Source: Komagataeibacter sp. FNDCF1
GTDB taxonomy: Bacteria; Pseudomonadota; Alphaproteobacteria; Acetobacterales; Acetobacteraceae
DNA: 64,000 nt
Reading direction: 5' to 3'
Assembly: GCF_021295335.1 (NCBI RefSeq)
Contig: NZ_JAIWOT010000001.1
Location: 251,001 to 315,000, forward strand
A model generated the notes under the pieces. The model did not search any database. It saw only the letters and a program-made list of their open reading frames with translations, and was not told where the DNA came from. Made by a program: the position numbers and the translations under genes. Numbering within the stretch: position 1 is the stretch's first letter; every line of letters begins with the position of its first letter. Shown here one piece after another: positions 6,346 through 60,980 of this stretch.

Positions 6346-8321
<1,976 letters not shown>

Positions 8322-39001: not shown

Positions 39002-39125
39002 CGTCACTCCCCTGTTGCCATGATCAAGATATCGTTCACGCGGCCATGCGGCCCGTGCCGGATACGGCGCGATGCGTCCGGCACGGGGCCTGCCTGGCGG
39101 GTATGCGGGCCTGCGGCCCGTCGCT

Positions 39126-40019: not shown

Positions 40020-40056
40020 GGAAAGTCTCCTCTTGATTTCGGTCTCATTTCGTTTA

Positions 40057-40066
40057 TCGTATACTA
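40057..40066. promoter_or_regulatory. GntR-type half-palindrome TCGTATACTA
   Basis: This matches the FadR-subgroup core T-N-GTATAC-N-A and lies in the 76-base region between the divergent starts at 40019 and 40096, so a single bound dimer could control both directions. The GntR gene is two genes away. Confidence 0.5.
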
Positions 40067-40095
40067 AATGATTTGGAAAGGATGAAAACAGCTCT

Positions 40096-41355: not shown

Positions 41356-41401
41356 GCACGGACTTCCCACAATCATAACGAAACAGGACAGGAAACAGAC
41401 C

Positions 41402-42979: not shown

Positions 42980-43058
42980 AGCCCTTCCAACCGGACAGGC
43001 ATGACGTGGCTGCCACAGATCGTGCCGTGCCTGTTCCCCTCCGCCAGAGAGATGTGCC

Positions 43059-44681
43059 ATGACCCGGCAGCAACCGGCATTTTCGCGTTCCCTTTCGCTT
43101 CTTGACCTCATCATGCTGGGGTTCGGGGCGGTTTTCGGCTCGGGCTGGCTGTTTGCCGCATCGCATGTGGCGGCCATTGCCGGGCCTGCCAGCATCCTGT
43201 CATGGCTGGCCGGGGGGATAGCCGTCCTGCTGCTGGGACTGGTTTACTGCGAACTGGCCGCCGCACTGCCGGAAGCGGGCGGCATGATCCGCTATCCCGC
43301 CTATGCGCATGGCCCCCTGCTTGGCGGGCTGCTGGGGTTCATTACGGTCATTGCCTATTCCAGCCTGATCTCGATCGAGATCATCGCCGCGCGGCAATAT
43401 GCGGGGTCCTGGTTTCCGGCACTGACGGCCAACAAGGCGGGCGATGCGACGCTGCTGGGCTGGATGGCGCAGTTCGTGGTCCTGCTGGGCATGCTCCGGC
43501 TCAACATATCGGGCGTGAAGACATTTGCCCTGTTCAACAACATCATCACGGTATTCAAGTTCATCGTGCCGGTACTGGTGACGGTGATGCTGCTGCTGCA
43601 CCTGCGTGCCGCCAATTTCACCACATGGGGCTTTGCCCCCTTTGGCCAGCAGAGCATCGAGGCCGCCGTTTCCGTCGGGGGCATCATTTTTGCCTATCTG
43701 GGCCTTACTCCCATCATTGCCGTCGCGAGCGAGGTGGATAACCCGCAGCGGACCATTCCCATTGCGCTGACGCTGTCGGTCCTTCTGGCAACGCTGGTCT
43801 ATATCCTGCTGCAGGTCGCCTTTATCGGGTCCGTCCCGACCGACCTGCTGGCGGCCAGGGGGTGGAGTGGCATCGACCGTGTGCTGCCCCTGCCGTTCCA
43901 TGACATCGCACTGGTACTGGGGCTGGGCTGGCTTGGCTCTGCCGTCGTGATCGACGCCGTGATTTCCCCCACGGGAACCGGGAACATCTACATGGGCTCC
44001 ACCGCGCGCATCATCTATGCATGGTCGCGTTCAGGCACGTTCCTGCCGTGGTTCGCGCATCTTGATTCACGGCATCACGTGCCCCGGCGTGCGACATTCC
44101 TGACGTTCGGCCTGTGCGTTTTCTGGATGCTGCCCTTTCCATCATGGGAAGCGCTGATCGGTGTCGTATCTTCCGCACTGATCATGAGCTACGCCTTCGC
44201 GCCGGTGGCGGCGGCGGCATTGCGGCGTTCCGCGCCGGACCTGCACCGGCCTTTCCGCGTGTCGTGCATGCGGGTGCTGGGGCCGGTCTCGTTCATGATC
44301 GCCAGCCTGATCGTGTTCTGGTCGGGGTGGCATACCCTGTCGTGGCTGCTTTCCGTCCAGCTGGCTTTCGGGCTGGTCTACCTTGGCGTGCAGGGCTTTC
44401 GGGACATGGCCGCCATGCGCGAGAACCTGCGCAGCAGCGCGTGGGTGCTGGTCTATTTCATGGGGATGCTGGTCCTGTCCGCAACCGGGTCGCTGGGGGG
44501 GTACGATATCGTGCCCCGGCCGTTCGATGACATGGCGGTGGCGCTGTTCGCCGCGGTGATCTTCGTATGGGGCGAGCGCACGGCGCATCGTGACATGAAG
44601 CTGCCTTCCACCCCGACCGACGCGGGAGTGGTGGAGGACATCCGGGCAATCATCGCAAACGAACCCACGGTTTCCACCTGA
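43059..44681 (+). CDS. APC-family amino acid permease
   Basis: The 540-residue inner-membrane transporter has about 12-13 predicted helices. It begins with FSRSLSLLDLIMLGFGAVFGSGWLF, the usual first-helix motif, and contains AYLGLTPIIAVASEVDNPQRTIP in the conserved helix 6-7 region. It differs clearly from the GabP-like permeases at 16422 and 63045 in length and sequence. Co-orientation directly after the KGSADH gene (79 bases) suggests import of hydroxyproline or proline-type amino acids. The C-terminal 40 residues are cytoplasmic and polar. Confidence 0.88.
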   Translation: MTRQQPAFSRSLSLLDLIMLGFGAVFGSGWLFAASHVAAIAGPASILSWLAGGIAVLLLGLVYCELAAALPEAGGMIRYPAYAHGPLLGGLLGFITVIAYSSLISIEIIAARQYAGSWFPALTANKAGDATLLGWMAQFVVLLGMLRLNISGVKTFALFNNIITVFKFIVPVLVTVMLLLHLRAANFTTWGFAPFGQQSIEAAVSVGGIIFAYLGLTPIIAVASEVDNPQRTIPIALTLSVLLATLVYILLQVAFIGSVPTDLLAARGWSGIDRVLPLPFHDIALVLGLGWLGSAVVIDAVISPTGTGNIYMGSTARIIYAWSRSGTFLPWFAHLDSRHHVPRRATFLTFGLCVFWMLPFPSWEALIGVVSSALIMSYAFAPVAAAALRRSAPDLHRPFRVSCMRVLGPVSFMIASLIVFWSGWHTLSWLLSVQLAFGLVYLGVQGFRDMAAMRENLRSSAWVLVYFMGMLVLSATGSLGGYDIVPRPFDDMAVALFAAVIFVWGERTAHRDMKLPSTPTDAGVVEDIRAIIANEPTVST

Positions 44682-44978
44682 TGGCCGGATACGTGCGGTG
44701 AAGGCGTTTGACCCGCTGCATGTAGCGCGAAGGCAGGGCAGGTTGTGCCAATGTCGCATACAATGTATCCACATGTCTGAATTGTTCACGAATCATAAGT
44801 TTATTTGCATATCGGCCATTCCATCAGGGAATGGGTATGGCCCTCCAATATCCCCTGCGCGCAGTAGCGGCTGAGGGGAAATGATAGTAACGGATTAAGA
44901 ACGTGTTTTGCCTGCACCCTGTCCAGACAGGGTCTGCCGTAAGGCTTTTCCTGATTTTCTGAATGAAAGAATACGTGC

Positions 44979-46265
44979 ATGAAAAATGATCCGCGCAGCC
45001 ATGGCCTCTGGGAACAGTCAGCGCCCCCGCCACCGGCAACATCACCGCTACGGGGGCATGTAGATGTGGATGTCGCCATTGTCGGGGCAGGTTATACCGG
45101 CCTGTCCGCGGCACTGCACCTGGCCGAGCAGGGACGCGGCGTAGCCGTGCTGGAAGCCGAGGAAATCGGCTTTGGCGGGTCGGGCCGCAATGTCGGACTG
45201 GTCAATGCCGGGCTGTGGGTCATGCCCAATTACCTTCTTTCCACGCTGGGCCATGAAATGGGCCACCGCGTGCTTGACCTGCTGGGGAACGGGCCGCGGA
45301 CGGTGTTCGACCTGATCGCAAAGCACGATATCAGCTGCGAGGCTGAACCGACCGGCACCCTGCATTGCGCGGTAGGCCAGAAGGGGCTGGAAAACCTGCG
45401 TGAACGTGAATGCCAGTGGCAGGCCATTGGTGCGCCGGTCCACCTGCTGGAGCGTGATGAAGCGGCCGTGCGTATCGGCAGTTCGGCGTTCAGCGGCGCG
45501 CTGGTTGATGACCGTGCCGGTACGATCCAGCCCCTGGCCTATGCCCGTGGCCTTGCCGCGGCGGCCATGAAGGCGGGCGCGCAGATTTATACCGGCACCC
45601 GTGTCAACGCGGCCCAGCGGGCAGGGGAATGGTGGCACCTGAGCACCGTGGGCGGTGCTTCGGTCCGGGCGCGGTGGATCATCGTGGCCACCAATGCCTA
45701 TACCGGCGACCTGTGGCCCGAACTGCGTTCGGAAATCGTGAACCTGCCCTATTTCAACATGGCCACCCGCCCGCTTTCCCCCGAACTGCTCAAGACCATC
45801 CTGCCCTACAAGCAGGGCGCGTGGGATACGCAGAAGATACTGACCTCCTTCCGTCTTGATCAGGCCGGGCGCATGATCCTTGGCAGCATTGGCGCGCTTG
45901 ATCGGGTTGGCCAGCCGGTTCACCACGCATGGGGGCGCCGCGCGCTGGCGCGGATCTATCCCGAACTGAAGGACGAGGCCTTCGAAAGCGAGTGGTACGG
46001 CATGATCGGCATGACATCCGATGCGCTGCCCCGCCTCCACAAGCTCGGGACCAATGTACTGTCCATCAGCGGGTATAACGGGCGTGGCATCTCGCCCGGC
46101 ACGGTATTCGGCAAGACACTGGCGCAGCTGATCTGCGGGCAGATTGGCATGGCGGACATGCCGCTGCCGCTGACCCGGGCCAAGGCTGCGCCCGCCCGTG
46201 CGGCGCGCGAGGCCTTTTTTGCCGCCGGATCGATCATAAGCCATGCCGGCGCCGCCCGGCTGTGA
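44979..46265 (+). CDS. amaA: FAD-dependent oxidoreductase, probable L-pipecolate oxidase
   Basis: The 428-residue flavoprotein is of the DAO/PuuB-OrdL group. The FAD-binding motif DVAIVGAGYTGLSAALHLAE lies at residues about 30-49, FGGSGRNVGLVNAGLW is the substrate-side loop, and ISGYNGRGISPGTVFGKTLA closes the FAD site. Its length equals that of P. putida AmaA, and it is followed by an AmaB-like dehydrogenase, the same pairing. Expected reaction: L-pipecolate to piperideine-6-carboxylate. A gamma-glutamylputrescine or other secondary-amine oxidase is the alternative. Confidence 0.82.
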   Translation: MKNDPRSHGLWEQSAPPPPATSPLRGHVDVDVAIVGAGYTGLSAALHLAEQGRGVAVLEAEEIGFGGSGRNVGLVNAGLWVMPNYLLSTLGHEMGHRVLDLLGNGPRTVFDLIAKHDISCEAEPTGTLHCAVGQKGLENLRERECQWQAIGAPVHLLERDEAAVRIGSSAFSGALVDDRAGTIQPLAYARGLAAAAMKAGAQIYTGTRVNAAQRAGEWWHLSTVGGASVRARWIIVATNAYTGDLWPELRSEIVNLPYFNMATRPLSPELLKTILPYKQGAWDTQKILTSFRLDQAGRMILGSIGALDRVGQPVHHAWGRRALARIYPELKDEAFESEWYGMIGMTSDALPRLHKLGTNVLSISGYNGRGISPGTVFGKTLAQLICGQIGMADMPLPLTRAKAAPARAAREAFFAAGSIISHAGAARL

Positions 46266-46319
46266 TATCCGTGCGAAGGCGGATCGAACATATCATTCAC
46301 GACTGGAGATGAAACACAC

Positions 46320-47831
46320 ATGACTATCGCATCGGATATCCACGGCCTTCTGGAAAAGATGGGCGTACGGCCGGAGCAGTACACCGGTGGTGAACTGGCT
46401 GTCCGCACCCCCGTCACGGGTGAGACGGTTGCCAACGTCCCCATGGTGACGCCAGGGCAGGTGGAAGATGCCATCGTACAGGCGACCGCCGCTTTCCGGC
46501 AGTGGCGCACGGTTCCGGCCCCCCGCCGGGGCGAACTGGTCCGCCTTCTGGGCAATGTCCTGCGTGAAAACAAGGAAGCGCTGGGACGTCTGGTTTCATT
46601 CGAAGCCGGCAAGGTCATTTCCGAAGGGCTGGGCGAAGTCCAGGAAATGATCGATATCTGTGATTTCGCGGTCGGCCTGTCACGCCAGCTTTATGGCCTG
46701 ACAATCCAGTCGGAACGACCCGAGCACCGTCTGGTTGAACAGTGGCATCCTGCTGGCGTAGTTGGCATCATTTCCGCATTCAACTTCCCGGTTGCCGTGT
46801 GGTCGTGGAACGCGGCGCTGGCGCTGGTCTGTGGTGACCCGGTCATCTGGAAGCCGTCGGAAAAGACCCCGCTGACCGCCATCGCCACCCAGGCCCTGTT
46901 CGAGCAGGCTGCCGCGCGGTTTGGCGATGTGCCCGCCGGCCTGTCCACCCTGCTGGTCGGGGATGCGCGCACCGGCGAACTGCTGGTCAATGACCGCCGG
47001 CTGCCCATCATTTCCGCCACCGGTTCCACCCGCATGGGCCGGATCGTGGGTGAGCAGGTTGCCAAGCGCTTCGGCCGTTCCATCCTGGAACTGGGTGGCA
47101 ACAACGCCTCCATCGTCACGCCATCGGCCGATCTGGACCTGACCCTGCGCGCGGTTGCCTTTGGCGCCATGGGCACGGCGGGCCAGCGCTGCACGTCGCT
47201 GCGCCGGCTTATCGTGCATGAAAGCGTTTATGATGCGCTGGTGGGCAAGCTGAAGCAGGTCTATGCCAACATTTCCGTCGGCTGCCCGATCGGTAGCGAT
47301 GCTCTGGTGGGGCCGCTGATCGACCGTGCCTCCTTTGACGCCATGCAGGCCAGCCTGAAGGCGGCCAGGGACGCCGGTGGTCAGGTCCATGGGGGTGAAC
47401 GGGTCACGGTTCATGGCCCGGAAGCATTCTACGCCAAGCCCGCGCTGGTCGAGATGCCCGCCCAGGCCGGCCCGGTGCTGGAGGAGACGTTTGCCCCGAT
47501 CCTGTACGTGCTGAAATACAGCGATCTGGATGAAGCCATTGCGCTGCAGAATGATGTCATGCAGGGGCTGTCTTCCTCGATTTTCAGCACTGACCTGCGT
47601 GAAGTCGAACAGTTCCTGTCCGCGGTCGGGTCCGACTGTGGCATTGCCAACGTGAATATCGGCCCGTCCGGGGCTGAAATCGGTGGCGCGTTCGGTGGTG
47701 AGAAGGAAACCGGTGGCGGCCGTGAAGCCGGTTCCGATGCATGGCGCGGTTACATGCGCCGTCAGACCAACACCATCAATTACGGCCGTACCCTGCCTCT
47801 GGCGCAGGGCGTCAAGTTCGACGTCGGCTGA
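46320..47831 (+). CDS. amaB: Piperideine-6-carboxylate / 2-aminoadipate semialdehyde dehydrogenase
   Basis: The 503-residue aldehyde dehydrogenase is of the ALDH7 (antiquitin) type. The residues for catalysis are E257 in LELGGNNASIV and C291 in GTAGQRCTSLRRLIV, and the C-terminal block SGAEIGGAFGGEKETGGGREAGSDAWRGYMRR is characteristic of the ALDH7 group and binds the aminoadipate end. It should oxidise 2-aminoadipate-6-semialdehyde to L-2-aminoadipate. It lies 54 bases after the pipecolate oxidase gene behind a GGAG sequence, and a very strong hairpin ends the operon. Confidence 0.93.
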   Translation: MTIASDIHGLLEKMGVRPEQYTGGELAVRTPVTGETVANVPMVTPGQVEDAIVQATAAFRQWRTVPAPRRGELVRLLGNVLRENKEALGRLVSFEAGKVISEGLGEVQEMIDICDFAVGLSRQLYGLTIQSERPEHRLVEQWHPAGVVGIISAFNFPVAVWSWNAALALVCGDPVIWKPSEKTPLTAIATQALFEQAAARFGDVPAGLSTLLVGDARTGELLVNDRRLPIISATGSTRMGRIVGEQVAKRFGRSILELGGNNASIVTPSADLDLTLRAVAFGAMGTAGQRCTSLRRLIVHESVYDALVGKLKQVYANISVGCPIGSDALVGPLIDRASFDAMQASLKAARDAGGQVHGGERVTVHGPEAFYAKPALVEMPAQAGPVLEETFAPILYVLKYSDLDEAIALQNDVMQGLSSSIFSTDLREVEQFLSAVGSDCGIANVNIGPSGAEIGGAFGGEKETGGGREAGSDAWRGYMRRQTNTINYGRTLPLAQGVKFDVG

Positions 47832-47842
47832 TTACATGCGCA

Positions 47843-47876
47843 GGCGGGGCCGGGGCATTCCTGCCCCGGCCCCGCC
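47843..47876. terminator. 15-bp GC hairpin between convergent genes
   Basis: A perfect 15-base-pair stem rich in G and C with a TTCC loop occupies the gap between amaB and the convergent OCD-family gene. No T-run follows on either strand. It is the most stable hairpin I found in the window. Confidence 0.7.
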
Positions 47877-47905
47877 GTGTCCATGTATGAGAAGGAACCG
47901 GGGCG

Positions 47906-48811
47906 TCATGCCGCCCCGTGCATGCGGGCAACGCGGCAGGCCGCCAGATCCCATGCGGAGCAGCCCACGGACTTGAACACGACCGGACGGGCCGGATCGC
48001 GTGGCGTTCCTTCCAGCACTGTGGCCAGTGACCGCACGCGTGCCCAGTCCACGCCCGCCTGGTGCAGGTCACCCGCTTCGGATGGCGCGCCAACCAGGTC
48101 ATCCACATACAGGTCGCTGCCGTTGATCGTAAGCGGGCCGATTTCCGCCATGTCGGTACGATAGGCACCAACCCCGATTACCAGACAGCCGGGTGTGGGC
48201 GCCTGATCATAGATCACGTTCGTACTGCTGGTGACGGTAATAACCACGTCGAAAGGCGCTTCGTGTGCGCCTTCGGGCCGCAGGTCCAGCGCCGATGTGG
48301 CGTGCTCCGTACAGAAGGCTGCCGCCCGTTCGTGCGACCGGCCCCGGATGACGGCCGTAATGCCCGGGTAAAGGGCGGACAGCGCCTGCACATGTGCGAC
48401 GGCTTGGATGCCCGTACCGATTATCAACACGCGTTGCGGCTTTCTGCCGGCCAGGAGCCGTATGCCCAGCATGGTGACGGCGGATGTACGACGCATGGTG
48501 ACGGTTGGCCCGTCAAGCGAGAACAGGAAGCGCCCGCTCCTGGCCTCGGCGCAGATGACCTGCCCCTGTATGGCGGGAAGGTGCAGCGCAGGATTGCCGC
48601 CGAAAATGGTGAGCAGCTTGGTAACCATCAGGTCATGGCCGACCGAAGGCATGGTCATGAGTACACCCTTGCCATCCGTTGCGGGAACGGTCAGGCGTTC
48701 GGGGCAGATGATCTGTTCCGTCACCGTCTCCTTCAGCGCAATGGCCAGCGCGTCAACAAGGGGTGAAAAAGGCAGGAGTTCGCAGGTCTGCTGTGCTGAA
48801 TACTGTTTCAT
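47906..48811 (-). CDS. Ornithine cyclodeaminase/mu-crystallin family protein, probable ketimine reductase
   Basis: The 301-residue protein has the OCD/mu-crystallin fold with a Rossmann motif VLIIGTGIQAVAHVQALSALYPG near residues 125-145 and the substrate loop GVLMTMPSVG. Members include ornithine cyclodeaminase, alanine dehydrogenase and reductases of piperideine-2-carboxylate and pyrroline-2-carboxylate. Beside amaAB, the best fit is reduction of piperideine-2-carboxylate to L-pipecolate, as in D-lysine catabolism; a pyrroline-2-carboxylate reductase linked to hydroxyproline would also fit. It converges on amaB. Confidence 0.82.
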   Translation of the reverse strand: MKQYSAQQTCELLPFSPLVDALAIALKETVTEQIICPERLTVPATDGKGVLMTMPSVGHDLMVTKLLTIFGGNPALHLPAIQGQVICAEARSGRFLFSLDGPTVTMRRTSAVTMLGIRLLAGRKPQRVLIIGTGIQAVAHVQALSALYPGITAVIRGRSHERAAAFCTEHATSALDLRPEGAHEAPFDVVITVTSSTNVIYDQAPTPGCLVIGVGAYRTDMAEIGPLTINGSDLYVDDLVGAPSEAGDLHQAGVDWARVRSLATVLEGTPRDPARPVVFKSVGCSAWDLAACRVARMHGAA

Positions 48812-49754: not shown

Positions 49755-50684
49755 TCATGGCAGGCTGGAATTCTTGTCCCATATGCCCTGTTCGACGTAG
49801 GAATTAACAATGTCATGGATGGTGGTCCCGACAAAATGGGCCAGGCGTGAGGTCGGCCTGTCCGAAGGGTAGGACAGGACCAGCTGGCGCAGGGCCACCG
49901 GCTCGCTCAGCGGGGCCGCACTCAGGAATCCGGATCTGACCTCATTGTAAATGGATGCCAGCGGCAGGATGGTCCAGCCATGGCCATGCTGGACCAGGTT
50001 TTTGAGCGATGTATAGGAATCCGCTTCCGCAATGACATTGAGCGATATGCCAACGACCGACGCGCATTTTTCTATGATGGGGCGCAATCCGTGCCGGATT
50101 GATGGCAGGACCATCCGCTTTCCGTTCAGATGGTCGAATGGAACGGGCGTGCTGATGTCAAACCCGGAATCAGGCGGCCCGATGACAAAGAATTTTTCGA
50201 CCAGCAGCGGTTCGGAACGCAGGGCCTGCGCGGTAACAGGCGCATACAGGACCGCGATATCCACTTCGCCCCGGTGCAGCCAGTCGATCAGATAGCCGGT
50301 ATAGGCACTGACAATACGCAGCATGGCCTGCGGATGGCGCGCCTGCAGCGATGCCATCAGCGGGACTTCGATCAGGCCGGATACGGTGGGCGGCAGGCCG
50401 ACCGCGACCTGCCCGGTCAGTGGCGCATCCACATGTCCCGTATTTGCGCGTATCTCCTCAAGTTCCGTCATGATGTACATGGCGCGCTTGACCACGTCGC
50501 GACCGGCCTCGGTTAGTACCATGCCACGGCCATGGCGGGTGAAAAGGGAAATGCCCAGTTCCTGCTCCAGCATCCGGACCTGGCGGCTCAGGGCGGGCTG
50601 TGCGATCCGCATGCGGTCAGCCGCCTTGCTCAGGCTGCCCAGTTCGGCCACATGAATGATCGTGCGGAGCTGAGAGATTTCCAT
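49755..50684 (-). CDS. LysR-family transcriptional regulator
   Basis: The 309-residue regulator has the DNA-binding domain at the N-terminus (ISQLRTIIHVAELGSLSKAADRMRIAQPALSRQVRMLEQ, residues about 3-41, marked here for its helix-turn-helix) and a co-inducer domain from about residue 90 (GQVAVGLPPTVSGLI). It resembles the Nac/CynR-type subgroup. It is divergent from the FAD oxidoreductase that heads the pxp-biotin operon, and 186 bases with overlapping inverted repeats separate them, so it is almost surely the regulator of that operon. The effector is unknown. Confidence 0.92.
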   Translation of the reverse strand: MEISQLRTIIHVAELGSLSKAADRMRIAQPALSRQVRMLEQELGISLFTRHGRGMVLTEAGRDVVKRAMYIMTELEEIRANTGHVDAPLTGQVAVGLPPTVSGLIEVPLMASLQARHPQAMLRIVSAYTGYLIDWLHRGEVDIAVLYAPVTAQALRSEPLLVEKFFVIGPPDSGFDISTPVPFDHLNGKRMVLPSIRHGLRPIIEKCASVVGISLNVIAEADSYTSLKNLVQHGHGWTILPLASIYNEVRSGFLSAAPLSEPVALRQLVLSYPSDRPTSRLAHFVGTTIHDIVNSYVEQGIWDKNSSLP

Positions 50685-50870: not shown

Positions 50871-52043
50871 GTGGGTAAGCAGACGCAAACCGTGGTGATC
50901 GTGGGGGGCGCCATCATTGGCAGTTTTGCCGCCTATTACCTGCGGAAACTGGGTTTTGACGGGCAGATCAGCGTGATCGAGGCCGATCCGAGCTATGCCC
51001 GCTCCTCCACGGCGCTGTCCGCCGCATCGATCCGTACCCAGTTCGGATGCGCCATCAATATTCACATGAGCCTGTTCGCGGCGGATCTGTTTCGCAACAT
51101 CACACGGGAATTCGGCGCGGACGCCGATATCGGTTTTGTGGAACAGGGCTACCTGATTATCGCGTCAGAGGCACAGAAGGCGGAACGGCAGGCTGCCGTG
51201 CGCATGCAGAATGCCGAGGGTGCCAGCATTGCCGCCCTGTCACCTGACGAAGCACGGGCACGGTTTCCATGGCTGAATGCCAGCGATATCGGGCTTGCCA
51301 CCTACGGGCTGAAAAACGAAGGCTGGTTCGATGCCTGGTCCCTACTGCAACTGGTACGCAGGGCAGCCCGTGACCTGGGGGTGAACTATGTCACGGGCCA
51401 TGTCGATGCCATTGAAGTGCAGGGAACGAAAGCCACAGGGGTAAGGATGGATGACGGGACGCATGTGCCCGCGGACTGGTGCATCAACGCCGCCGGCCCC
51501 ATGGCGGCCAGAATTGTCCGGGACATCGTGCCCGGTTTTCCGGTCGAGCCGCGCAAAAGGACGGTCTTTTCCCTGAAGACACCTCTGAGCGGTACCGGTT
51601 TTCCCATGCTGTTCGATGATTCCGGGGCATGGATCCGGCCCGAAGGGCAGGGGTTCATTGCTGGTATCGCCCCCGCCGCGGATCAGGACCCGGACGCGAC
51701 AGGTGATTTCGAACCCGCTCATGACCTGCTGGAGGATGTGCTGTGGCCAGCACTGGCGCACCGCGTGCCGGTGCTGGAAGACCTGCGGGTCGAGCGGAGC
51801 TGGGCGGGCCATTACGAAGTGAACTTCCTGGACCATAACGCCATCATTGGCCCGCATGACGAAATCGGCAATCTTGTCTTCATGAACGGGTTTTCCGGGC
51901 ATGGTGTCATGCATGCCCCCGCTGCCGGGCGGGGCATTGCGGAACACATCCTGACGGGACAGTACCGTACACTCGATCTTTCGCCGCTGGGGTTCGAACG
52001 TATCCGCGCAGGCAGGAAACTGCATGAAACCGTTGTGTACTGA
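50871..52043 (+). CDS. FAD-dependent oxidoreductase (DAO family) heading the pxp-biotin operon
   Basis: The flavoprotein of about 390 residues has a Rossmann FAD motif TVVIVGGAIIGSFAAYYLRK at its N-terminus, a RTQFG loop (AASIRTQFGCAINIHMS) as in sarcosine-oxidase- and glycine-oxidase-like enzymes, and a C-terminal FAD-closing block FMNGFSGHGVMHAPAAGRG. I start it at GTG 50871, five bases after GGAGG; an in-frame ATG at 50844 is the alternative. It probably oxidises an amine or imino acid. Being first in the operon, it may make the lactam or its precursor that the following genes process. Substrate unknown. Confidence 0.85.
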   Translation: MGKQTQTVVIVGGAIIGSFAAYYLRKLGFDGQISVIEADPSYARSSTALSAASIRTQFGCAINIHMSLFAADLFRNITREFGADADIGFVEQGYLIIASEAQKAERQAAVRMQNAEGASIAALSPDEARARFPWLNASDIGLATYGLKNEGWFDAWSLLQLVRRAARDLGVNYVTGHVDAIEVQGTKATGVRMDDGTHVPADWCINAAGPMAARIVRDIVPGFPVEPRKRTVFSLKTPLSGTGFPMLFDDSGAWIRPEGQGFIAGIAPAADQDPDATGDFEPAHDLLEDVLWPALAHRVPVLEDLRVERSWAGHYEVNFLDHNAIIGPHDEIGNLVFMNGFSGHGVMHAPAAGRGIAEHILTGQYRTLDLSPLGFERIRAGRKLHETVVY

Positions 52044-52094
52044 CATGATCGCGCACGGTGCCATGGGCCATGCTCCGGACCATGGGGGCCGTGG

Positions 52095-52739
52095 ATGCTG
52101 AAGCTGCACATGGCGGGTTCGGGCGCAATTCTGGGTGATGCGGCCGAAGGTGCGTTCAGCCCCGTGACCCAGCGGCGGATATGGTCGCTTGCCCGGCTCC
52201 TGTCCGCACGCGACGGGGTCGAGCAGGCCGTGCCGGGCGTCAACAATATCCTGATCACATTCGATTCATTAACCGTTCCGGCGGAAACGATCGAGGCACT
52301 TGTCCATGCATCATGGGAGCAGGCGCGCCCCGATGCCGTGGCCGCCAGGGAATGTGAAATTCCGGTGCAATATGGTGGTGCGCATGGTGAAGACCTGCAG
52401 CGGGTGGCGGATCACGCCGGGCTGTCGGTGCGCGAGGTGATCGAGCGGCATCAGGCGGCGCGCTATTCGGTCGCTGCCGTGGGTGCCATGCCCGGCTTTG
52501 TCTACCTTACGGGACTGGACCCGGCCCTTGCCATTCCCCGCCGGGATTCACCGCGCCTGACCGTGGCGAAAGGCGCGGTCATCATCGGCGGCGGGCAGGC
52601 CGGGATCATGCCGTGCACCGCGCCATCCGGATGGCATATCCTGGGACATACCGATGTCGAACTTTTTTCCCTTGACCGTTCCGACCCGCTCCTGCTGCAC
52701 CCGGGCGATACCGTGCGCTTTTGCGCCATCGGGGCATAG
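52095..52739 (+). CDS. pxpB: 5-oxoprolinase subunit B / KipI-type carboxyltransferase half
   Basis: This 214-residue protein matches PxpB/KipI (carboxyltransferase domain, subdomains C and D). Conserved stretches are AVPGVNNILITFD, IPVQYGGAHGEDLQRVADHAGLS, AVGAMPGFVYLTGLD and IGGGQAGIMPCTAPSGWHILGHT. In urea carboxylase the same module forms part of the carboxyltransferase domain; in E. coli PxpABC it drives ATP-dependent opening of 5-oxoproline. It begins 51 bases after the flavoprotein gene, and its stop lies 3 bases from pxpC. Confidence 0.92.
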   Translation: MLKLHMAGSGAILGDAAEGAFSPVTQRRIWSLARLLSARDGVEQAVPGVNNILITFDSLTVPAETIEALVHASWEQARPDAVAARECEIPVQYGGAHGEDLQRVADHAGLSVREVIERHQAARYSVAAVGAMPGFVYLTGLDPALAIPRRDSPRLTVAKGAVIIGGGQAGIMPCTAPSGWHILGHTDVELFSLDRSDPLLLHPGDTVRFCAIGA

Positions 52740-52742
52740 CGC

Positions 52743-53717
52743 ATGACCGGGGCACGGCAGGCCGCACTGGAAGTCCTGGCAAGTGGCAACCTGAACAGCA
52801 TTCAGGACCGCGGTCGCAGGCATGCCCTGGGGATGGGTGTGTCCGTGGGCGGGGCAATGGACCGGTTTGCGCTGGAAGTGGCCAACCTGCTTGTCGGAAA
52901 TGACAGGGATGCCGCCGGGATCGAGGTGGTTTTCTTTCCCTTCCGCATAAGGTTTTTGCAGGATACGATCTTTGCCCTGACCGGGGCGGACGCGAACCCG
53001 GTGCTGGATGGGGAACCCATCCCCCCATGGTGGGCGCGGCAGGCGCGGGCAGGCCAGACACTGGTGCTGGGCGCACCGCAGGGCGGGGTCAGCAGTTATC
53101 TTGCCGTTCGTGGCGGGCTGGACGTGCCGCAGGTGCTGGGCTCACGCGCGACGGACCGCAAGGCGCATTTTGGCGGGCTGGAGGGCAGGGGGCTGGAACG
53201 GGGTGACCGCCTGTCGGTCTGTCCCGCCATGGGGGCAGTACGGTCCTGCCCGGAAACGGGCTGGGGCGCGCGGATCGATACCCTGCGCAATGGTGATGCT
53301 GTCCGGGTTCTGCCAGCGGCGGAATGGGCGTGCTTCCAGCCCGAAGCCCGTGATATTTTCCTGCATGACGGATGGACCGTTACCGCCCAAGCCAACCGTG
53401 CCGGCTACCGGCTGGACGGGCGTGAACTGCAGTTGTGCCACCCGCTGAACCTGATGTCGCACGGCATTGTGCCCGGCACCGTTCAGGTACCGCCCGCGGG
53501 ACTGCCGATCATACAGATGGCCGATGCGAACACGTGTGGTGGCTATCCGAAGATCGCAACGGTCATTGAGGCGGATCTGGGATGCGTGGCGCAGGTCCCG
53601 GTGGGCGGCACCATCCGTTTCGCGCTGGCAACGCGGGAGGAGGCACGGCAGGCGTTACGGGCCAGACAGGCCTTTCTTGCCGCGCTGACCAACGATCTAC
53701 GCATGATTTTTCAGTAG
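52743..53717 (+). CDS. pxpC: 5-oxoprolinase subunit C / KipA-type carboxyltransferase half
   Basis: This 324-residue protein matches PxpC/KipA (carboxyltransferase domain, subdomains A and B). The N-terminal GNLNSIQDRGRRHALGMGVSVGGAMDR and the later SSYLAVRGGLDVPQVLGSR and MADANTCGGYPKIATVIEAD blocks are family hallmarks. Together with PxpB it makes the catalytic core of 5-oxoprolinase or, in fused form, the carboxyltransferase of urea carboxylase. It ends 10 bases before pxpA. Confidence 0.92.
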   Translation: MTGARQAALEVLASGNLNSIQDRGRRHALGMGVSVGGAMDRFALEVANLLVGNDRDAAGIEVVFFPFRIRFLQDTIFALTGADANPVLDGEPIPPWWARQARAGQTLVLGAPQGGVSSYLAVRGGLDVPQVLGSRATDRKAHFGGLEGRGLERGDRLSVCPAMGAVRSCPETGWGARIDTLRNGDAVRVLPAAEWACFQPEARDIFLHDGWTVTAQANRAGYRLDGRELQLCHPLNLMSHGIVPGTVQVPPAGLPIIQMADANTCGGYPKIATVIEADLGCVAQVPVGGTIRFALATREEARQALRARQAFLAALTNDLRMIFQ

Positions 53718-53727
53718 GAAGCTGCAC

Positions 53728-54513
53728 ATGAGCACACAAGCATCGCGTATTGTCGACCTGAATGCCGACCTGGGAGAAGGATTCGGGCAGTACAGGATCG
53801 GTGATGACAATGCCATGCTGTCCCTGGTCACATCCGCCAACATTGCCTGCGGCTTTCACGCCGGGGACCCCGAGATCATGGCCGCCACGTTCAGCCGGGC
53901 CAGAGAGAACGGTGTCAATGTCGGGGCCCATCCCGGTTTTCCCGACCTGTGGGGGTTCGGCCGCCGGGTCATGCCGTTTTCCCCGGCTGAGATCGAGCGG
54001 CTGGTGGCTTATCAGGTGGGGGCGGCCATGGCGCTGGCGTCCTATAGTGGCCATGCCATTACATATGTGAAGCCCCACGGCGCGCTTGGAAACCTGACCG
54101 AAACGGATGCCGATATTGCCATGGCGGTGGCGCGGGCCGTGCGCGCGGTGGATGACAGGCTTGCCGTGCTGGCCATTGCCCGCAGCGCGCTTGGCCGGTG
54201 CGCAGCCGATATGGGCATGACCGTCTATTCCGAAATCTTTGCCGACCGTGCCTATACCGAAGAAGGACGACTGGTATCGCGCAGGCTGCCAGGCGCCGTT
54301 ATACACGATCCCGACATGGCGGCTGCACGGGTTGTCAGAATGGTGGAAGCCGGCGCGATAGAAACACAGACCGGCAGGATGCTGCCCACGCCCATCCATT
54401 CCATATGCGTGCATGGTGACAATACCCATGCGGTGCATGTGACGCGCAGGGTCAGGACATCGCTGGAGGAAGCCGGAATTGTCCTTCGTTCATTTGTAAA
54501 CAGCCCCGCATAG
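53728..54513 (+). CDS. pxpA: 5-oxoprolinase subunit A (LamB/YcsF family)
   Basis: The 261-residue protein is a canonical LamB/YcsF member: it begins with VDLNADLGEGFGQYRIGDD, and ANIACGFHAGDP, GAHPGFPDLWGFGRR and YVKPHGALGN follow. Length is normal. In PxpABC this subunit supplies the hydrolytic part of lactam ring opening. Here it is encoded between the carboxyltransferase halves and the biotin-carrier genes. Confidence 0.94.
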   Translation: MSTQASRIVDLNADLGEGFGQYRIGDDNAMLSLVTSANIACGFHAGDPEIMAATFSRARENGVNVGAHPGFPDLWGFGRRVMPFSPAEIERLVAYQVGAAMALASYSGHAITYVKPHGALGNLTETDADIAMAVARAVRAVDDRLAVLAIARSALGRCAADMGMTVYSEIFADRAYTEEGRLVSRRLPGAVIHDPDMAAARVVRMVEAGAIETQTGRMLPTPIHSICVHGDNTHAVHVTRRVRTSLEEAGIVLRSFVNSPA

Positions 54514-54546
54514 GCCAGCGTCCGGGCGACTGCAGGAGCATTATTG

Positions 54547-54999
54547 ATGAATGTGGAACTTCTCGACGCACTGATGGCGCTCATGTCCGAACTGGGGATC
54601 AATGAACTGTGCCATGATCAAGATGGCATACGGGTCCATCTCCAGCGTACGCCAGCCACGCATGGCGGAATAAACGCCCCGTCGATGGTGGCGGAGCATG
54701 CGATGCCCCCGCCTGCCGGGACACCTGCCACCATGCCGCCCGATGATGAAATGCTGCTGGCACCGATGAGCGGTACCTTTTACCTGACCCCCGCCCCGGA
54801 TGCGCCGCCATTTGTAAGGATCGGTGATGTGGTGGAGGAAGGTGCGCCGCTGTATGTGCTTGAAGTCATGAAGACACTCAACAGGATCTGTGCAGATTTC
54901 AGATGCAGGATAAAAGGGATTGAAGCCACGACCGGCCAGCCTGTAACCGCTGGTGCACCGCTTTTCAGCGTGGAGCGGCTTGATGACCATGACGTTTAA
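54547..54999 (+). CDS. Biotin carboxyl carrier protein
   Basis: The 150-residue protein looks like AccB. It has an N-terminal helical region, a proline-rich linker (residues about 53-68) and a C-terminal biotinyl domain starting near LLAPMSGTFYLTPAP. The biotin-accepting lysine is K109 in VLEVMKTLN, a variant of the usual EAMKM in which Ala and Met next to Lys are changed to Val and Thr. I start it at ATG 54547 behind AGGAG. It overlaps the biotin carboxylase gene by 17 bases, so the two are coupled, and it is distinct from a housekeeping acetyl-CoA carboxylase by its operon. Confidence 0.9.
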   Translation: MNVELLDALMALMSELGINELCHDQDGIRVHLQRTPATHGGINAPSMVAEHAMPPPAGTPATMPPDDEMLLAPMSGTFYLTPAPDAPPFVRIGDVVEEGAPLYVLEVMKTLNRICADFRCRIKGIEATTGQPVTAGAPLFSVERLDDHDV

Positions 55000-56347
55000 G
55001 TCTGTCCTGATCGCCAATCGTGGCGAAATCGCCCTGCGGATTGTCCGCGCGTGCAAGCTGCTCGGGCTGGAGACCATCGGTGTTTTTGCACAAGGAGACG
55101 ACAGGCAGCGTCATCTGGAACTGGTGGACCGCGCCATATGCATTGGCCCGGCTGCGGCGGCCGGCAGCTATCTTGATCAGGGTCGTATCCTGCGGGCGGC
55201 GAAGCTGACCGGCGCACAGGCCATTCACCCCGGATATGGCTTCCTGTCGGAAAAAGCGGATTTTGCCCAGGCCGTGCACGATGCGGGGCTTGTTTTCGTG
55301 GGGCCATCGGCATCGGTCATTCGTACGATGGGTGACAAGATCGCGGCCCGCAACCAGATGATGGAAGCCGGCGTTCCCTGCCTGCCGGGCACCCACGGGG
55401 CCCTGCCTGAAGATGGCGCCAGCGCGAAGGCGGCCTGTGATGCAATCGGCTATCCTCTCATCATCAAGGCTGCTGGTGGTGGGGGTGGCCGTGGCATGCG
55501 GGTCGTCATGGAACCGGCCGGACTGGACGTTGCGATCCAGACAGCGCGGCAGGAAGCGATCCATGCGTTTTCAAACGGTGACCTGTATGCCGAGCGGTTC
55601 CTGACAACGCCCAGGCATGTTGAAATACAGGTCCTGGCCGATGCAACAGGTGCCGCGATCTGGCTGGGTGACCGTGACTGTTCCGTCCAGCGCCGACACC
55701 AGAAACTGATCGAGGAAGCGCCCGCCTTCGGTATCCCGCGTGGGGATGTGGAACGGCTGGGACAGTCATGTGCCGATGCCTGTCGCGCCATGGGCTATAC
55801 CGGCGTTGGAACGTTTGAATTTCTTTATGAAGATGGCGCATTCTATTTCATAGAGATGAATACCCGGCTTCAGGTGGAACACCCGGTTACGGAAATGGTC
55901 ACCGGGTTCGACATCGTTGCCGAACAGCTTCGTATCGCAGGTGGGCAGGGCCTGTCATTGCAGCAGTCCGATGTGGAAATTCGTGGGCATGCGATCGAAT
56001 GCCGGATCAATGCCGAGGATCCCGTGACATTCGCACCCAGCCCCGGAACCGTGACACGCTGGCGGCCACCGGGCGGCCCCGGTGTGCGGGTGGAAAGCCA
56101 TCTTTATGACGGATATGGCATTCCGCCGTCATATGATTCCCTGATTGCCAAACTGGTCGTGCATGGAACAACGCGTGAGGATGCGGTGCACAGGATGCGG
56201 GCCGCGCTGGCGGAGATGACAGTCGAAGGCATCTCCACAACCCTGCCACTGCATCAGCGCCTTATGGGCGAGCCCGGTTTCTGCAACGGAAACATATCGG
56301 TGCACTATCTTGAAAAAACTTCTGAAGCAGGAATGAAGCCGCCATGA
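54983..56347 (+). CDS. Biotin carboxylase (AccC-like)
   Basis: The 454-residue ATP-grasp enzyme carboxylates biotin on a carrier protein using ATP and bicarbonate. Domains are in order: N-terminal SVLIANRGEIALRIVRACK, the ATP-binding glycine loop KAAGGGGGRGMR near residue 160, the catalytic region GDRDCSVQRRHQKLIEEAP, MNTRLQVEHPVTE near residue 290, and the C-terminal GHAIECRINAEDP. No domain is missing. Start at ATG 54983 follows a GGAG sequence. Because it lies with BCCP and PxpABC but with no acetyl-CoA carboxyltransferase genes (accA/accD), it probably serves this operon. Confidence 0.94.
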   Translation: MTMTFKSVLIANRGEIALRIVRACKLLGLETIGVFAQGDDRQRHLELVDRAICIGPAAAAGSYLDQGRILRAAKLTGAQAIHPGYGFLSEKADFAQAVHDAGLVFVGPSASVIRTMGDKIAARNQMMEAGVPCLPGTHGALPEDGASAKAACDAIGYPLIIKAAGGGGGRGMRVVMEPAGLDVAIQTARQEAIHAFSNGDLYAERFLTTPRHVEIQVLADATGAAIWLGDRDCSVQRRHQKLIEEAPAFGIPRGDVERLGQSCADACRAMGYTGVGTFEFLYEDGAFYFIEMNTRLQVEHPVTEMVTGFDIVAEQLRIAGGQGLSLQQSDVEIRGHAIECRINAEDPVTFAPSPGTVTRWRPPGGPGVRVESHLYDGYGIPPSYDSLIAKLVVHGTTREDAVHRMRAALAEMTVEGISTTLPLHQRLMGEPGFCNGNISVHYLEKTSEAGMKPP

Positions 56348-56760
56348 ATCGTGATGCAGTTTCAGTGCCGGGGCGTGTATCGGTCATCCGGGATATCGTC
56401 TCCCGGATGCGGCAATATGGGATCAGTAGCCTTGAATACCGGGACAATACGGATCTGCTCCATATCAGCCTTGAAAAACCGCACGAACCGACCGTGAGTG
56501 CCATTTCCCCTGCGCCATTGGCGCAGACGGGGGTCATCCGTAGTCCGGATATGGGAATTTTCCGGGCGGTGCATCCGCTCCGGCAGGGTCGGCCGGTTCA
56601 GATGCATGATGAAATCGTGGAAAAACAGATTGTCGGTTATGTAGAGGCAGGCGAGGTCCTGCTTGCCATTCCCGCTGGATGCCATGGCAGGATCACGGAC
56701 ATCATGGCCAGGGACAACCAGCCGGTGGGGTACCATCAGGACATATTTCTCGTGACGTGA
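56344..56760 (+). CDS. BCCP-like protein lacking the biotin lysine
   Basis: This 138-residue protein has the AccB layout: an N-terminal helical segment (IRDIVSRMRQYGISSLEYRD), a linker, and a C-terminal lipoyl/biotinyl domain from about residue 64 (VIRSPDMGIFRAVHPLRQG). Where the carrier motif should read V-E-A-M-K it reads V-E-A-G-E (residues 100-104), so the modified lysine is replaced by glutamate 104. It overlaps the biotin carboxylase stop as ATGA. It cannot carry biotin in the normal way and may be structural or regulatory, for example by holding the complex together. Confidence 0.8.
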   Translation: MNRDAVSVPGRVSVIRDIVSRMRQYGISSLEYRDNTDLLHISLEKPHEPTVSAISPAPLAQTGVIRSPDMGIFRAVHPLRQGRPVQMHDEIVEKQIVGYVEAGEVLLAIPAGCHGRITDIMARDNQPVGYHQDIFLVT

Positions 56761-58420: not shown

Positions 58421-59671
58421 TCAGGTTTCATGTGCGAGATGCCGGACAACATCGAGCAGTACGTTCGCGCCCGCGACCAGCGCCTCATCCGAAGTGAATT
58501 CTTCCGGGTTATGGCTGATGCCCAGCCTGCTTGGAACGAAAATCATTGCGGCGGGCGCCATGCCTGCGATCATCTGCGCATCGTGACCCGCACCGGAAGT
58601 CATGCGCCGGGAAGCAAGGCCACGCCTTGATGCCACATCTTCAATCAGGGCAACAATGCGTGGATCGAACCTGACGGGTGCGGAGCGGGCAAGCTTTTCC
58701 ACATGGATTTTCACGTCTCCCGTTGCCTGGAGATGTGACAGAAAGCGCGACAAGGCGTCTTCCTCCTCAACAAGCCGGTTTTCGTCTGGATTGCGTAGAT
58801 CAATGGTCAATGTGGCGCGGGCAGGAATAACATTTATGGCATTGGGTTCAAAAGCAATGGTGCCAACCGTCGCGACACCGGATGTATCTGGGCGACTGGC
58901 ACGATCATGGATGAAAGTCATGATCCGCGCTGCGGCGTGACCGGCATCGCGCCGTAATGCCATCGGGGTGGTACCCGCGTGGTTGGCCTGGCCTTCAATC
59001 GTGATACGCTGCCATGAAATGCCCTGCAGGTCAGCAACCGCGCCGATCGAACTGCCGATATGTTCTAGCACGGGTCCCTGCTCGATATGGAGTTCCACGT
59101 AAGCGTGGGGCGCCAGAAAACCGGGGGCGTACGGGCCGGCGTAACCAATGCGGACCAGTTCATCCGCCAGTACCGTGCCATCGGTGCCGCGTGTGGCGAG
59201 CGCCTTTTTGATATCCAGTCCGCCTGCATAAACGAGTGATCCCATCATGTCGGGTGAGAACCGAACCCCTTCTTCATTCGTGAATGCGGCGACGGCAATC
59301 GGTCTGGGCGGGGTAAAACCTGCTTCCCGGAGCGTACGGATGACTTCCAGACCGGCAATGACCCCGTAGCATCCATCATAAATACCGGCATTGATGACTG
59401 TATCAATATGCGAACCCAGCAGGACCGGCTTCTGGTCGGCATGTCTGTCTTGTGTCCAGATGCCAAAGATATTGCCGATCTGGTCTATCGCGACCTCCAG
59501 CCCCGCGGCCCGGATACGGGCGACAAGGTGATCGCGTCCCAGCCTGTCGGCATCCGACAGGGCGAGGCGGGTCAATCGACCGTCGGTTTCGCGCCCGATA
59601 GCGCCGAGTTCGTGAATATCGGCAAGAAGGCGCCCGCTGTTGACTGACAGGGAAGTCATGATCTCAGACAT
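58421..59671 (-). CDS. M20-family N-carbamoyl-amino acid hydrolase
   Basis: The 416-residue binuclear metal amidase is of the hydantoinase/carbamoylase group (HyuC, allantoate amidohydrolase). Metal-site blocks are GSHIDTVINAGIYDGCYG, FTNEEGVRFSPDMMGS, ELHIEQGPVLE and SGAGHDAQM, and the lid domain is GQANHAGTTPM. Such enzymes release CO2 and ammonia from N-carbamoyl amino acids or hydrolyse related ureido acids. It overlaps the diaminopropionate ammonia-lyase gene by 8 bases. The E. coli pair ygeX-ygeY also links a diaminopropionate ammonia-lyase with an M20 hydrolase. Confidence 0.92.
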   Translation of the reverse strand: MSEIMTSLSVNSGRLLADIHELGAIGRETDGRLTRLALSDADRLGRDHLVARIRAAGLEVAIDQIGNIFGIWTQDRHADQKPVLLGSHIDTVINAGIYDGCYGVIAGLEVIRTLREAGFTPPRPIAVAAFTNEEGVRFSPDMMGSLVYAGGLDIKKALATRGTDGTVLADELVRIGYAGPYAPGFLAPHAYVELHIEQGPVLEHIGSSIGAVADLQGISWQRITIEGQANHAGTTPMALRRDAGHAAARIMTFIHDRASRPDTSGVATVGTIAFEPNAINVIPARATLTIDLRNPDENRLVEEEDALSRFLSHLQATGDVKIHVEKLARSAPVRFDPRIVALIEDVASRRGLASRRMTSGAGHDAQMIAGMAPAAMIFVPSRLGISHNPEEFTSDEALVAGANVLLDVVRHLAHET

Positions 59672-60869
59672 GGATGCTGGCGGCAGGGCTGATCTGCTCA
59701 GGCCGCTGTCCCACTATTTCGCGATAACGGAGCGGATCGGTCGCGCCTTCGGTATTGATGACGAAAACGCGCGATGTCGCATCAAGCCCCAGGCCTGCGC
59801 GTTGCTGTGGGGAATTTGCGGCACGGACAAGCCCGGCAAGCCCGACCCCACCGCTTTCGCCTGCTACAATTGCCGGGTCCTGCCCGCCAGGATGGGCCAG
59901 ACGCTTCATGATGCTGACCGCATCCTCTTCATCAACCGTCATGAAGGCATCTGCTGCATGCGACAGGATGCGCCATGCCGTAAGTGACGGTGTATGGCAT
60001 TCAAGCATGGCCATGATGGTGGGCTGGCTGGCCGGAACCGTTACCGGGTGGCCCATCTGCGCCGTTTTATAAAGACATGCGGCGCGCGCGGGTTCAACCA
60101 CGGTAAAGACCGGGCGCGCAGCACCCATGATAACCGCCAGATGCCCGGCAATGGCAGCCGCAATGCCCCCAACGCCCGCCTGCACGAATACATGCGTGGG
60201 GGGGCGGATCATCTGGCGGAGCGCTTCACAGAGCAGGTGCGTATAGCCTTGCATGACCAGCCCCGGAATATGCTCGTAACCAGGCCAGGATGTATCCGAT
60301 ACCGTGATCCACCCATTATCAGCGCCGGTCCGGGCTGCCATGGTAACCGACTGATCATAGGTGCCATCCACATGCCTGATCTCCGCCCCGAAGCGCGCGA
60401 TGGCCGCGATGCGATCATGACTTACGCCCTTGTGGACAAAAATGACGGCCTTTGCCCCGACTGCGGCGGCACCCTGTGCTACGGCGCGCCCATGATTGCC
60501 GTCCGTGGCGCAGACAAATGTCATTCCCCGGGCAGTGGCCCGCACCATCGGGCCATGCAGTTCGGATATGTCCACGACCCGTCCGGCCTGTTGCCCGGCC
60601 CGTTCCAGTACCAGGCGGGCGACTGCGTAACCGCCGCCGAGCGCCTTGAAACTGCCCAGTCCCAGCCTCTGTCCTTCATCCTTGACCTGGATGGCGCCCA
60701 CCCCCAGTTCCCGCGCCATATGGGGCAGATCATGCAGCGGTGTCGGCGCATTGTGTTCCCTGTATTTCAGGAAGCGTTCCACTTCCTGCATCGCGTTCCC
60801 GCCCAGCAGCAGCGCATCGGACGGCGGAAGGGACTGGTCATGAGAAGGACTGTTGTTGAGAAGAAACAT
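59664..60869 (-). CDS. Diaminopropionate ammonia-lyase
   Basis: The 401-residue PLP enzyme of fold type II breaks 2,3-diaminopropionate into pyruvate and two ammonia. Features match YgeX: the PLP lysine K75 in LGLGSFKALGGGYA, the CATDGNHGRAVAQGA block, the LLQAGVG-type motif (FVQAGVGGIAAA) and ISGESG-like VAGESGGVGLAGL. I chose the ATG at 60869 behind AGGGG because the upstream frame runs into the divergent promoter. It precedes the carbamoylase gene in one operon and faces an Lrp regulator gene 111 bases away. Confidence 0.88.
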   Translation of the reverse strand: MFLLNNSPSHDQSLPPSDALLLGGNAMQEVERFLKYREHNAPTPLHDLPHMARELGVGAIQVKDEGQRLGLGSFKALGGGYAVARLVLERAGQQAGRVVDISELHGPMVRATARGMTFVCATDGNHGRAVAQGAAAVGAKAVIFVHKGVSHDRIAAIARFGAEIRHVDGTYDQSVTMAARTGADNGWITVSDTSWPGYEHIPGLVMQGYTHLLCEALRQMIRPPTHVFVQAGVGGIAAAIAGHLAVIMGAARPVFTVVEPARAACLYKTAQMGHPVTVPASQPTIMAMLECHTPSLTAWRILSHAADAFMTVDEEDAVSIMKRLAHPGGQDPAIVAGESGGVGLAGLVRAANSPQQRAGLGLDATSRVFVINTEGATDPLRYREIVGQRPEQISPAASIHV

Positions 60870-60980
60870 TATTGCATAATCCCCTGCTGCGTGACTGCAA
60901 ATATATTGCAACATCCATGAAATATCTGCTGTATTAAGCAGGATGTTTTGCATTTTTTTTGCACGGAAGGTGCTGGTTTC

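Follow-up and report, generated by a model that had tools for sequence, protein, structure and literature searches.

A run of seven genes in a stretch of 64,000 nucleotides from Komagataeibacter sp. FNDCF1 raises the question of whether lactam-opening proteins and biotin proteins can be parts of one enzyme. The whole stretch (the window) corresponds to C1:251001-315000 of a 3.74 Mb genome. The run encodes three proteins of the kinds found in the PxpABC 5-oxoprolinase together with a biotin carboxyl carrier protein (BCCP), a biotin carboxylase (BC) and, as its last product, a second protein related to BCCP. This seventh protein, here called BCCPN, is a BCCP paralogue that lacks the biotin-bearing lysine, and it is a regular partner of full-length carriers encoded beside PxpB and PxpC. 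The odds are about even that these genes specify a carboxylase-hydrolase for lactams (or cyclic ureides) that is divided over several chains, is linked to biotin and has an extra structural subunit.

Gene content of the operon

The seven genes lie on the forward strand between positions 50871 and 56760 (Table 1). From the first gene to the fifth the spacing is 51, 3, 10 and 30 bases, after which BCCP and BC overlap by 11 bases and BC and BCCPN by 4. These overlaps suggest that BCCP, BC and the seventh gene are probably coupled in translation. The first six genes score above their Pfam cut-offs. Positions, order and Pfam families bear out the seven co-directional, tightly packed genes that the first-pass annotation, made from the sequence alone, had described.

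Table 1. Genes of the operon and neighbouring features in the window
Feature	Position	Strand	Remarks
LysR-type regulator	49755..50684	-	Open reading frame; divergent from the operon
DAO-type FAD-dependent oxidoreductase	50871..52043	+	GTG start; first of the run; PF01266 173.7 bits
PxpB (KipI, carboxyltransferase subdomains C/D)	52095..52739	+	PF02682 213.5 bits; TIGR00370 167.3, cut-off 145.55
PxpC (KipA, carboxyltransferase subdomains A/B)	52743..53717	+	Pfam over cut-off
PxpA (LamB/YcsF lactamase subunit)	53728..54513	+	PF03746 319.8 bits; NF003814 subfamily 360.7, cut-off 226
BCCP, full-length AccB type	54544..54999	+	Motif EVMK; PF00364 44.1 bits
BC, AccC type	54989..56347	+	ATG start; TIGR00514 634.7, cut-off 626.5
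BCCPN, lysine-less BCCP paralogue	56344..56760	+	Seventh gene; ATG start; AccB-like N-terminal domain, HP thumb
M20 hydantoinase/carbamoylase-family amidase	58421..59671	-	TIGR01879 402.6, cut-off 204
Diaminopropionate ammonia-lyase	59664..60953	-	NF006058 495.2, cut-off 276

The translation of the BC has the glycine-rich loop, EMNTRLQVEHPVTE and RINAEDP, which we take to be the motifs expected of a working BC. The BCCP reaches 89.1 bits against the NCBIfam AccB model TIGR00531, below the cut-off of 115.2. BCCPN scores 13.8 of the 22.1 bits required by Pfam, and its residues 51-137 match the NCBIfam BCCP model at 2.5e-7, which is also below the cut-off of that model. There is no AMK in its hairpin, nor an MK, and its C-terminus carries VGYH. 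The seventh gene had previously been called BCCP-like; the relation to BCCP stands, but a conserved lysine-less carrier had been overlooked.

The biotin genes could instead be half of a second acetyl-CoA carboxylase for fatty acid synthesis, present here by accident. The operon BC does exceed the NCBIfam accC cut-off. However, of the five PF02786 matches in the genome (the operon BC, a stand-alone BC at C1:2,672,409, a pair within a single 1097-aa frame and a low-scoring one in a frame of 498 aa), the stand-alone BC, with which the operon BC shares 53% identity, adjoins accB in a separate accB-accC pair near C1:2,672,409-2,673,592, and accA is located at C1:3,180,785. The operon BCCP falls short of the AccB model, and the same gene set goes with PxpABC in named members of the alpha, beta and gamma classes of Proteobacteria. 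An accidental second acetyl-CoA carboxylase is therefore very improbable, and a carboxylase of the fatty-acid type was rejected on account of the accBC and accA found elsewhere. No acetyl-CoA carboxylase carboxyltransferase family was found by Pfam among the seven operon genes, and PxpC has a single match in the genome. The earlier view that the biotin parts are unlikely to serve fatty acid synthesis is supported by the acc genes elsewhere, which also support a split system of PxpABC, BC and BCCP; nor does the operon hold the only accBC copy, a case that the first-pass annotation had named as refuting its view.

Recurrence of the neighbourhood

Neighbourhoods were read in two sets. The first set is made up of 60 neighbourhoods from relatives, nearly all around PxpC, 80 named loci (the best 80 of 596 from a PxpC alignment search, biased toward relatives) and the window; 138 of these loci have PxpC above threshold. 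The phylum sample, drawn to counter that bias, consists of 80 further PxpC places, hand-picked among the matches listed, with frames of up to about 820 aa and with some genomes represented twice. Genes were labelled with hidden Markov models built on the fetched loci. Many loci come from close relatives and are therefore not independent. A profile search with the BCCPN alignment matched 391 of 398 phylum genomes, evidently taking in ordinary AccB too, and is unusable as a count; neighbourhoods were therefore read instead.

The order PxpB-PxpC-PxpA-BCCP-BC-BCCPN is repeated in other genera, for example in L124-L127, L130, L132 and L134, and is therefore not due to chance. The pxpBCA-BCCP-BC neighbourhood, for which the first-pass annotation had suggested a search, thus recurs in many genera. 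In the first set BCCPN is present in 92 of the 138 loci, and in 80 of the 85 that hold PxpB, PxpC, BC and an AccB-type BCCP within 9 kb. The five exceptions are a cut duplicate of L077 (L120) and four loci with a short carrier (L110, L111, L112 and L116). Where both BC and BCCP are absent, BCCPN is found in 5 of 36 loci. The phylum sample has BCCPN in 6 of its 80 loci.

The length of the carrier separates the loci with BCCPN from those without. Beside BC and a full-length carrier the lysine-less partner is present in 80 of 80 loci of the first set and in 5 of 5 of the phylum sample (L286 included), and beside a short carrier in 0 of 4 loci of the first set; these counts omit 13 loci with BC, no partner and no separate carrier recognised (8 in the first set and 5 in the phylum sample; fused, 72-aa or cut), together with L175, whose carrier is cut by the start of the locus. 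L177, L184 and L158 are counted as having a lysine-less partner in each, that of L158 being divergent. The carrier of L183, at 177 aa, is counted as long, and the carriers of L191 and L070 sit in overlong frames. As the partner tracks full-length carriers and never short ones in both sets, the lysine-less protein accompanies carriers that have the AccB N-terminal domain.

The short carriers belong to a second class of split loci (L236-L238, L240-L242, L244, L249, L258, L260, L262, L270, L110-L112 and L116). These have PxpA, a BCCP of about 80 aa, BC, PxpB and PxpC in one run; they share the PxpA, BC, PxpB and PxpC of the window but have a carrier without an N-terminal domain and no lysine-less partner. 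In L095, L268, L279, L289-L291 and L294 there are BC-positive frames beside PxpA and PxpC, in some cases with PxpB, and no separate carrier was recognised; these may be alpha chains in which BC and BCCP are fused, accompanied by a transferase in two parts. The lysine-less protein of L286 (G309), a locus additional to the six of the phylum sample with BCCPN, is a full-length BCCP that scores about equally in the carrier and lysine-less models, and is perhaps of a second lineage.

BCCPN as a protein family

In the alignment the biotin position is lysine in 0 of 92 BCCPN (proline in 33, the others mixed) and in 91 of 91 BCCP; the classes were seeded by biotin motif and assigned by score, which means that the BCCP figure is partly built in and the BCCPN figure was not forced. 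BCCPN has features of its own. HP is found in the thumb region of 73 of 92 BCCPN, compared with 7 of 91 BCCP. Close to the C-terminus, 70 of 92 BCCPN carry G-[YFH]-[GH], a pattern seen in 0 of 91 BCCP. The matched stretch is at least 120 residues long in 90 of the 92, the exceptions being L158 and the fusion in L138 described below. The predicted fold is that of a biotinyl domain with a thumb, as in BCCP.

The identity of BCCPN to the BCCP of its own locus is 23%, and to other BCCP it is also 23%. The window pair has 21% identity over 128 columns, set against that mean; the corresponding yardstick for plant BADC is 25-30%. Since BCCPN is equally distant from its own and from other carriers, it is, as judged from these identities, a single old paralogue lineage. 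The Pfam score below cut-off would suit a decayed BCCP without function, but the retained length, the HP and G-[YFH]-[GH] signature and the single old lineage make decay hardly credible. A chance or decayed BCCP copy was rejected on the conserved lysine-less signature and the lineage.

A comparable protein is known from plants. The BADC proteins of the heteromeric acetyl-CoA carboxylase are BCCP paralogues without AMK that have a thumb fold and occur with BC and BCCP, as BCCPN does. BCCPN differs from them in being bacterial and encoded in an operon with a KipA/KipI transferase, and its interactions are putative. One article describes BADC as BCCP paralogues without AMKL, unique to the plant enzyme and acting as glue or as inhibitor (PMC11926652).

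In Pleomorphomonas koreensis (L138, 9942-10484, reverse strand) a 181-aa frame directly after pxpA fuses the two biotinyl domains, first one with EAMK and then that of BCCPN with HP and VGWG. Both fused domains are without the N-terminal domain, which is present in the separate proteins of the sister species (L139). Such a fusion, a single case among the loci read, would be expected if BCCP and BCCPN pair via their N-terminal domains.

Loci without a biotin carboxylase of their own

A FastTree of 136 PxpC sequences, a quick tree in which several long branches are unsure, places all 92 PxpC that have BCCPN in one set of 98 with six that do not (support 92). The distribution in this clade fits one origin of the association followed by some losses.

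Some loci hold part of the biotin genes. BCCP and BCCPN occur with no BC nearby in Pleomorphomonas and Rhizobium (L128, L129, L138, L139 and L157) and in L174. BCCPN alone accompanies PxpABC in Erwinia rhapontici (L186), E. persicina (L187) and Pantoea formicae (L176), as well as in L165, the cut locus L168, and L255 and L263 of the phylum sample. The three enterobacterial genomes each have a single BC that stands alone, in a 461-aa frame, besides a pair of frames of roughly 1200 aa and one strong match to a BCCP of AccB size. A plasmid of Rahnella sikkimica has a similar layout, in which the carrier beside PxpA is known by its annotation as an acetyl-CoA carboxylase subunit. If the lactamase used biotin at such loci, it would have to rely on the housekeeping AccB and AccC; of the biotin side, nothing but BCCPN has stayed near PxpABC. 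These loci are the strongest hint that BCCPN faces PxpBC.

The same loci bear on whether BCCPN adjusts the flux by inhibiting BCCP or competing with it, as was first proposed for plant BADC. A predicted BCCP fold with a thumb and no lysine would suit this role, and the inhibitor and glue views of BADC are both on record (PMC11926652). However, co-occurrence in 80 of 85 loci, retention in the three enterobacteria and fusion to the carrier suit a required part better than a brake, and an inhibitory function is rather improbable. BCCPN may tentatively be read as a bacterial BADC: an old, operon-encoded, biotin-less BCCP paralogue that would be a required adaptor of a biotin-linked lactamase, would pair with the carrier via N-terminal domains (lost in the L138 fusion), and would plug housekeeping AccB and AccC into PxpBC where dedicated BC and BCCP are missing. 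The fusion lends this possibility slight further weight. If it is correct, one carboxylase module would serve two enzymes at such loci.

Proposed reaction and the transferase site

In the proposed reaction, BC would load a carboxyl group from bicarbonate onto the biotin of BCCP at the cost of ATP, and this carrier would then visit the PxpB-PxpC carboxyltransferase. PxpB-PxpC would activate the ring amide, most likely by N-carboxylation, and PxpA would hydrolyse the activated ring; the resulting carbamate would fall apart and bicarbonate would thus be recycled. With no biotin lysine BCCPN cannot carry CO2. It has the predicted AccB fold, the N-terminal domain and the thumb, and its role would most likely lie in assembly rather than catalysis: it would pair with BCCP and tether the dedicated or housekeeping BC to PxpBC, as proposed for plant BADC.

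Several observations weigh against this scheme, the first of them in the transferase site. PxpABC opens 5-oxoproline with ATP and is not known to have dedicated biotin genes. In the urea amidolyase of Kluyveromyces lactis, Lys1605 is given as the likely general base of the carboxyltransferase reaction (PMC5770610). Across an alignment of 217 rows the fused urea carboxylases have lysine at this position without exception (4 of 4), as do 24 of the 31 loci that have BC but no BCCPN, a set that includes the short-carrier loci. The window PxpB has arginine there, and so do 97 of 97 PxpB of its class and 81 of the 85 PxpB whose loci lack BC and BCCPN. The window transferase site is therefore of the PxpABC type, and the urea-carboxylase-like carboxyl transfer suggested previously is not supported in that form. 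Carboxylation of a ring nitrogen by the window PxpBC would be by analogy, and the arginine may serve a lactam rather than urea. A plain urea carboxylase was rejected on account of the missing lysine.

The distribution of the genes adds to these points. No BC, BCCP or BCCPN is near PxpC in 51 of the 80 loci of the phylum sample, and a lysine-less partner is missing from the 13 loci of that sample in which BC occurs with a short carrier (0/13); neither biotin parts nor BCCPN are therefore general for PxpBC. Six PxpC within the clade are without a nearby BCCPN (L094, L136, L147, L153, L171 and L180), the contig of L136 ending 199 bases past the match. In the three enterobacteria that lack dedicated BC and BCCP, BCCPN might just as well serve PxpBC without biotin. 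Co-purified PxpB and PxpC are reported to hydrolyse ATP (PMC8453981). In L180, fragments of BCCP (35 bits) and BC (59 bits) lie at 7900-8300 ahead of pxpB, an apparent loss of the biotin genes.

These points could be met if PxpABC opened its lactam alone with ATP, as in E. coli, while BC, BCCP and BCCPN formed a separate carboxylase for a downstream intermediate. The window PxpB shares its active-site residue with most biotin-free PxpB, and PxpABC is found without nearby BC, BCCP and BCCPN in 43 of 80 phylum loci and in 20 loci of the first set (PxpA, PxpB and PxpC with no BC or BCCP; BCCPN in 0/20). There is, however, no second carboxyltransferase gene in the run, many loci have the biotin genes set in among pxpB, pxpC and pxpA, and BCCPN adjoins PxpABC even at loci that lack genes for BC and BCCP. 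Homologues of PxpB and PxpC also bind a BC-BCCP complex in a mycobacterium. In the long-chain acyl-CoA carboxylase of Mycobacterium smegmatis (PDB 9yx5; no paper on it was found in the literature search), the PxpB/PxpC homologues MSMEG_0435-MSMEG_0436 are bound to the BC-BCCP subunit AccA3, although AccA3 fuses BC and BCCP and is shared with acyl-CoA carboxylase. This solved complex strengthens the case for the split system first suggested from the sequence, and two independent enzymes in one operon are considered unlikely.

Relation to known systems

The E. coli 5-oxoprolinase (YbgJKL) has the same PxpA, PxpB and PxpC together, and the window proteins are homologous to the solved E. coli proteins. 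The window PxpB meets the TIGR00370 model, but PxpC misses the equivalog NF045499 (310.4 of 500 bits), PxpA misses three equivalogs (267.4 of 392, 260.7 of 337 and 220.8 of 378), and BC, BCCP and BCCPN are added. Urea carboxylase of K. lactis and Oleomonas has the same kinds of domain, namely BC, a KipA/KipI-type carboxyltransferase and BCCP. In the window these are on separate chains, none of which reaches the TIGR02712 cut-off of 1303.85; arginine replaces the transferase lysine, a lysine-less carrier is added, and LamB/YcsF takes the place of allophanate hydrolase. CapAB caprolactamase and HyuAB open lactams with ATP, and CapAB needs bicarbonate (PMC8453981), but they are of other protein families; HyuAB genes adjoin the operon in some relatives.

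Split transferase pairs were seen by Lombard and Moreira in 2011, who left it open whether they partner other biotin carboxylases or have another job (PMC3199775). With these operons that question becomes accessible to direct tests. They also give a simple bacterial setting for studying the role of a biotin-free BCCP, a point on which views of plant BADC still diverge (PMC11926652). Among the matches listed, no paper dealt with a lysine-less BCCP of bacteria or with biotin dependence of PxpABC, most subscription journals being outside the search. If the proposed function is correct, Proteobacteria have a form of ATP-dependent lactam opening that relies on biotin, and its key subunit goes under varied annotation names. 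In six plasmid records NCBI names BCCPN as hypothetical protein, biotin attachment protein, biotin/lipoyl-containing protein or acetyl-CoA carboxylase subunit, and PxpC is named 'biotin-dependent carboxyltransferase family protein'.

Neighbouring genes and possible substrates

The flavoprotein encoded by the first gene had been taken as part of the system, yet it is not regular there, with matches listed in 5 of the 80 named loci. Among the matches listed it reaches no NCBIfam cut-off, the best being ThiO (75.5 of 250.8 bits). The LysR-type gene is a possible regulator of the operon; among the loci of the 9 nearest relatives, 4 have LysR homologues and 4 have M20 homologues. The M20 amidase, possibly part of the pathway, has a gene that overlaps that of the diaminopropionate ammonia-lyase by 8 bases, and a homologue of the latter (DpaL) is found upstream of PxpB in L063. 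On its other side the operon is adjoined by 4-hydroxyproline and pipecolate-type catabolic genes (38003-48811), of which 4-hydroxyproline epimerase and L-piperidine-6-carboxylate dehydrogenase exceed their NCBIfam cut-offs and a pipecolate oxidase-like protein falls below its own.

HyuA and HyuB, of the ATP-dependent hydantoinase/caprolactamase family, occur near biotin-type PxpABC in Gluconobacter, Acetobacter and another relative. In the ten loci of the window PxpC clade both families are found in five (L074, L124, L125, L126 and L134) and M20 in five (the window, L064, L074, L125 and L126), as tallied by Pfam with one representative each, some loci being cut by contig ends. The presence of HyuAB and M20 next to the nearest relatives' operons points to cyclic amides or ureides as substrates. 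As a guess, the operon of this clade may act on a cyclic urea, for instance 2-oxoimidazolidine-4-carboxylate, whose opening would give 2,3-diaminopropionate, on which the ammonia-lyase encoded nearby could then act.

The wider surroundings differ between classes of locus. The 92 BCCPN loci have homologues of an aminotransferase in 61, of SDR in 66, of RraA in 29 and of an amino-acid ABC permease in 42. The corresponding numbers are 4, 8, 3 and 1 in 32 loci without BC and BCCPN, and 1, 4, 0 and 1 in 12 loci with BC and no BCCPN. The window locus has only SDR of these four. This suggests that the lactam or ureide differs between clades, and that some clades process it via transamination and an RraA-type aldolase.

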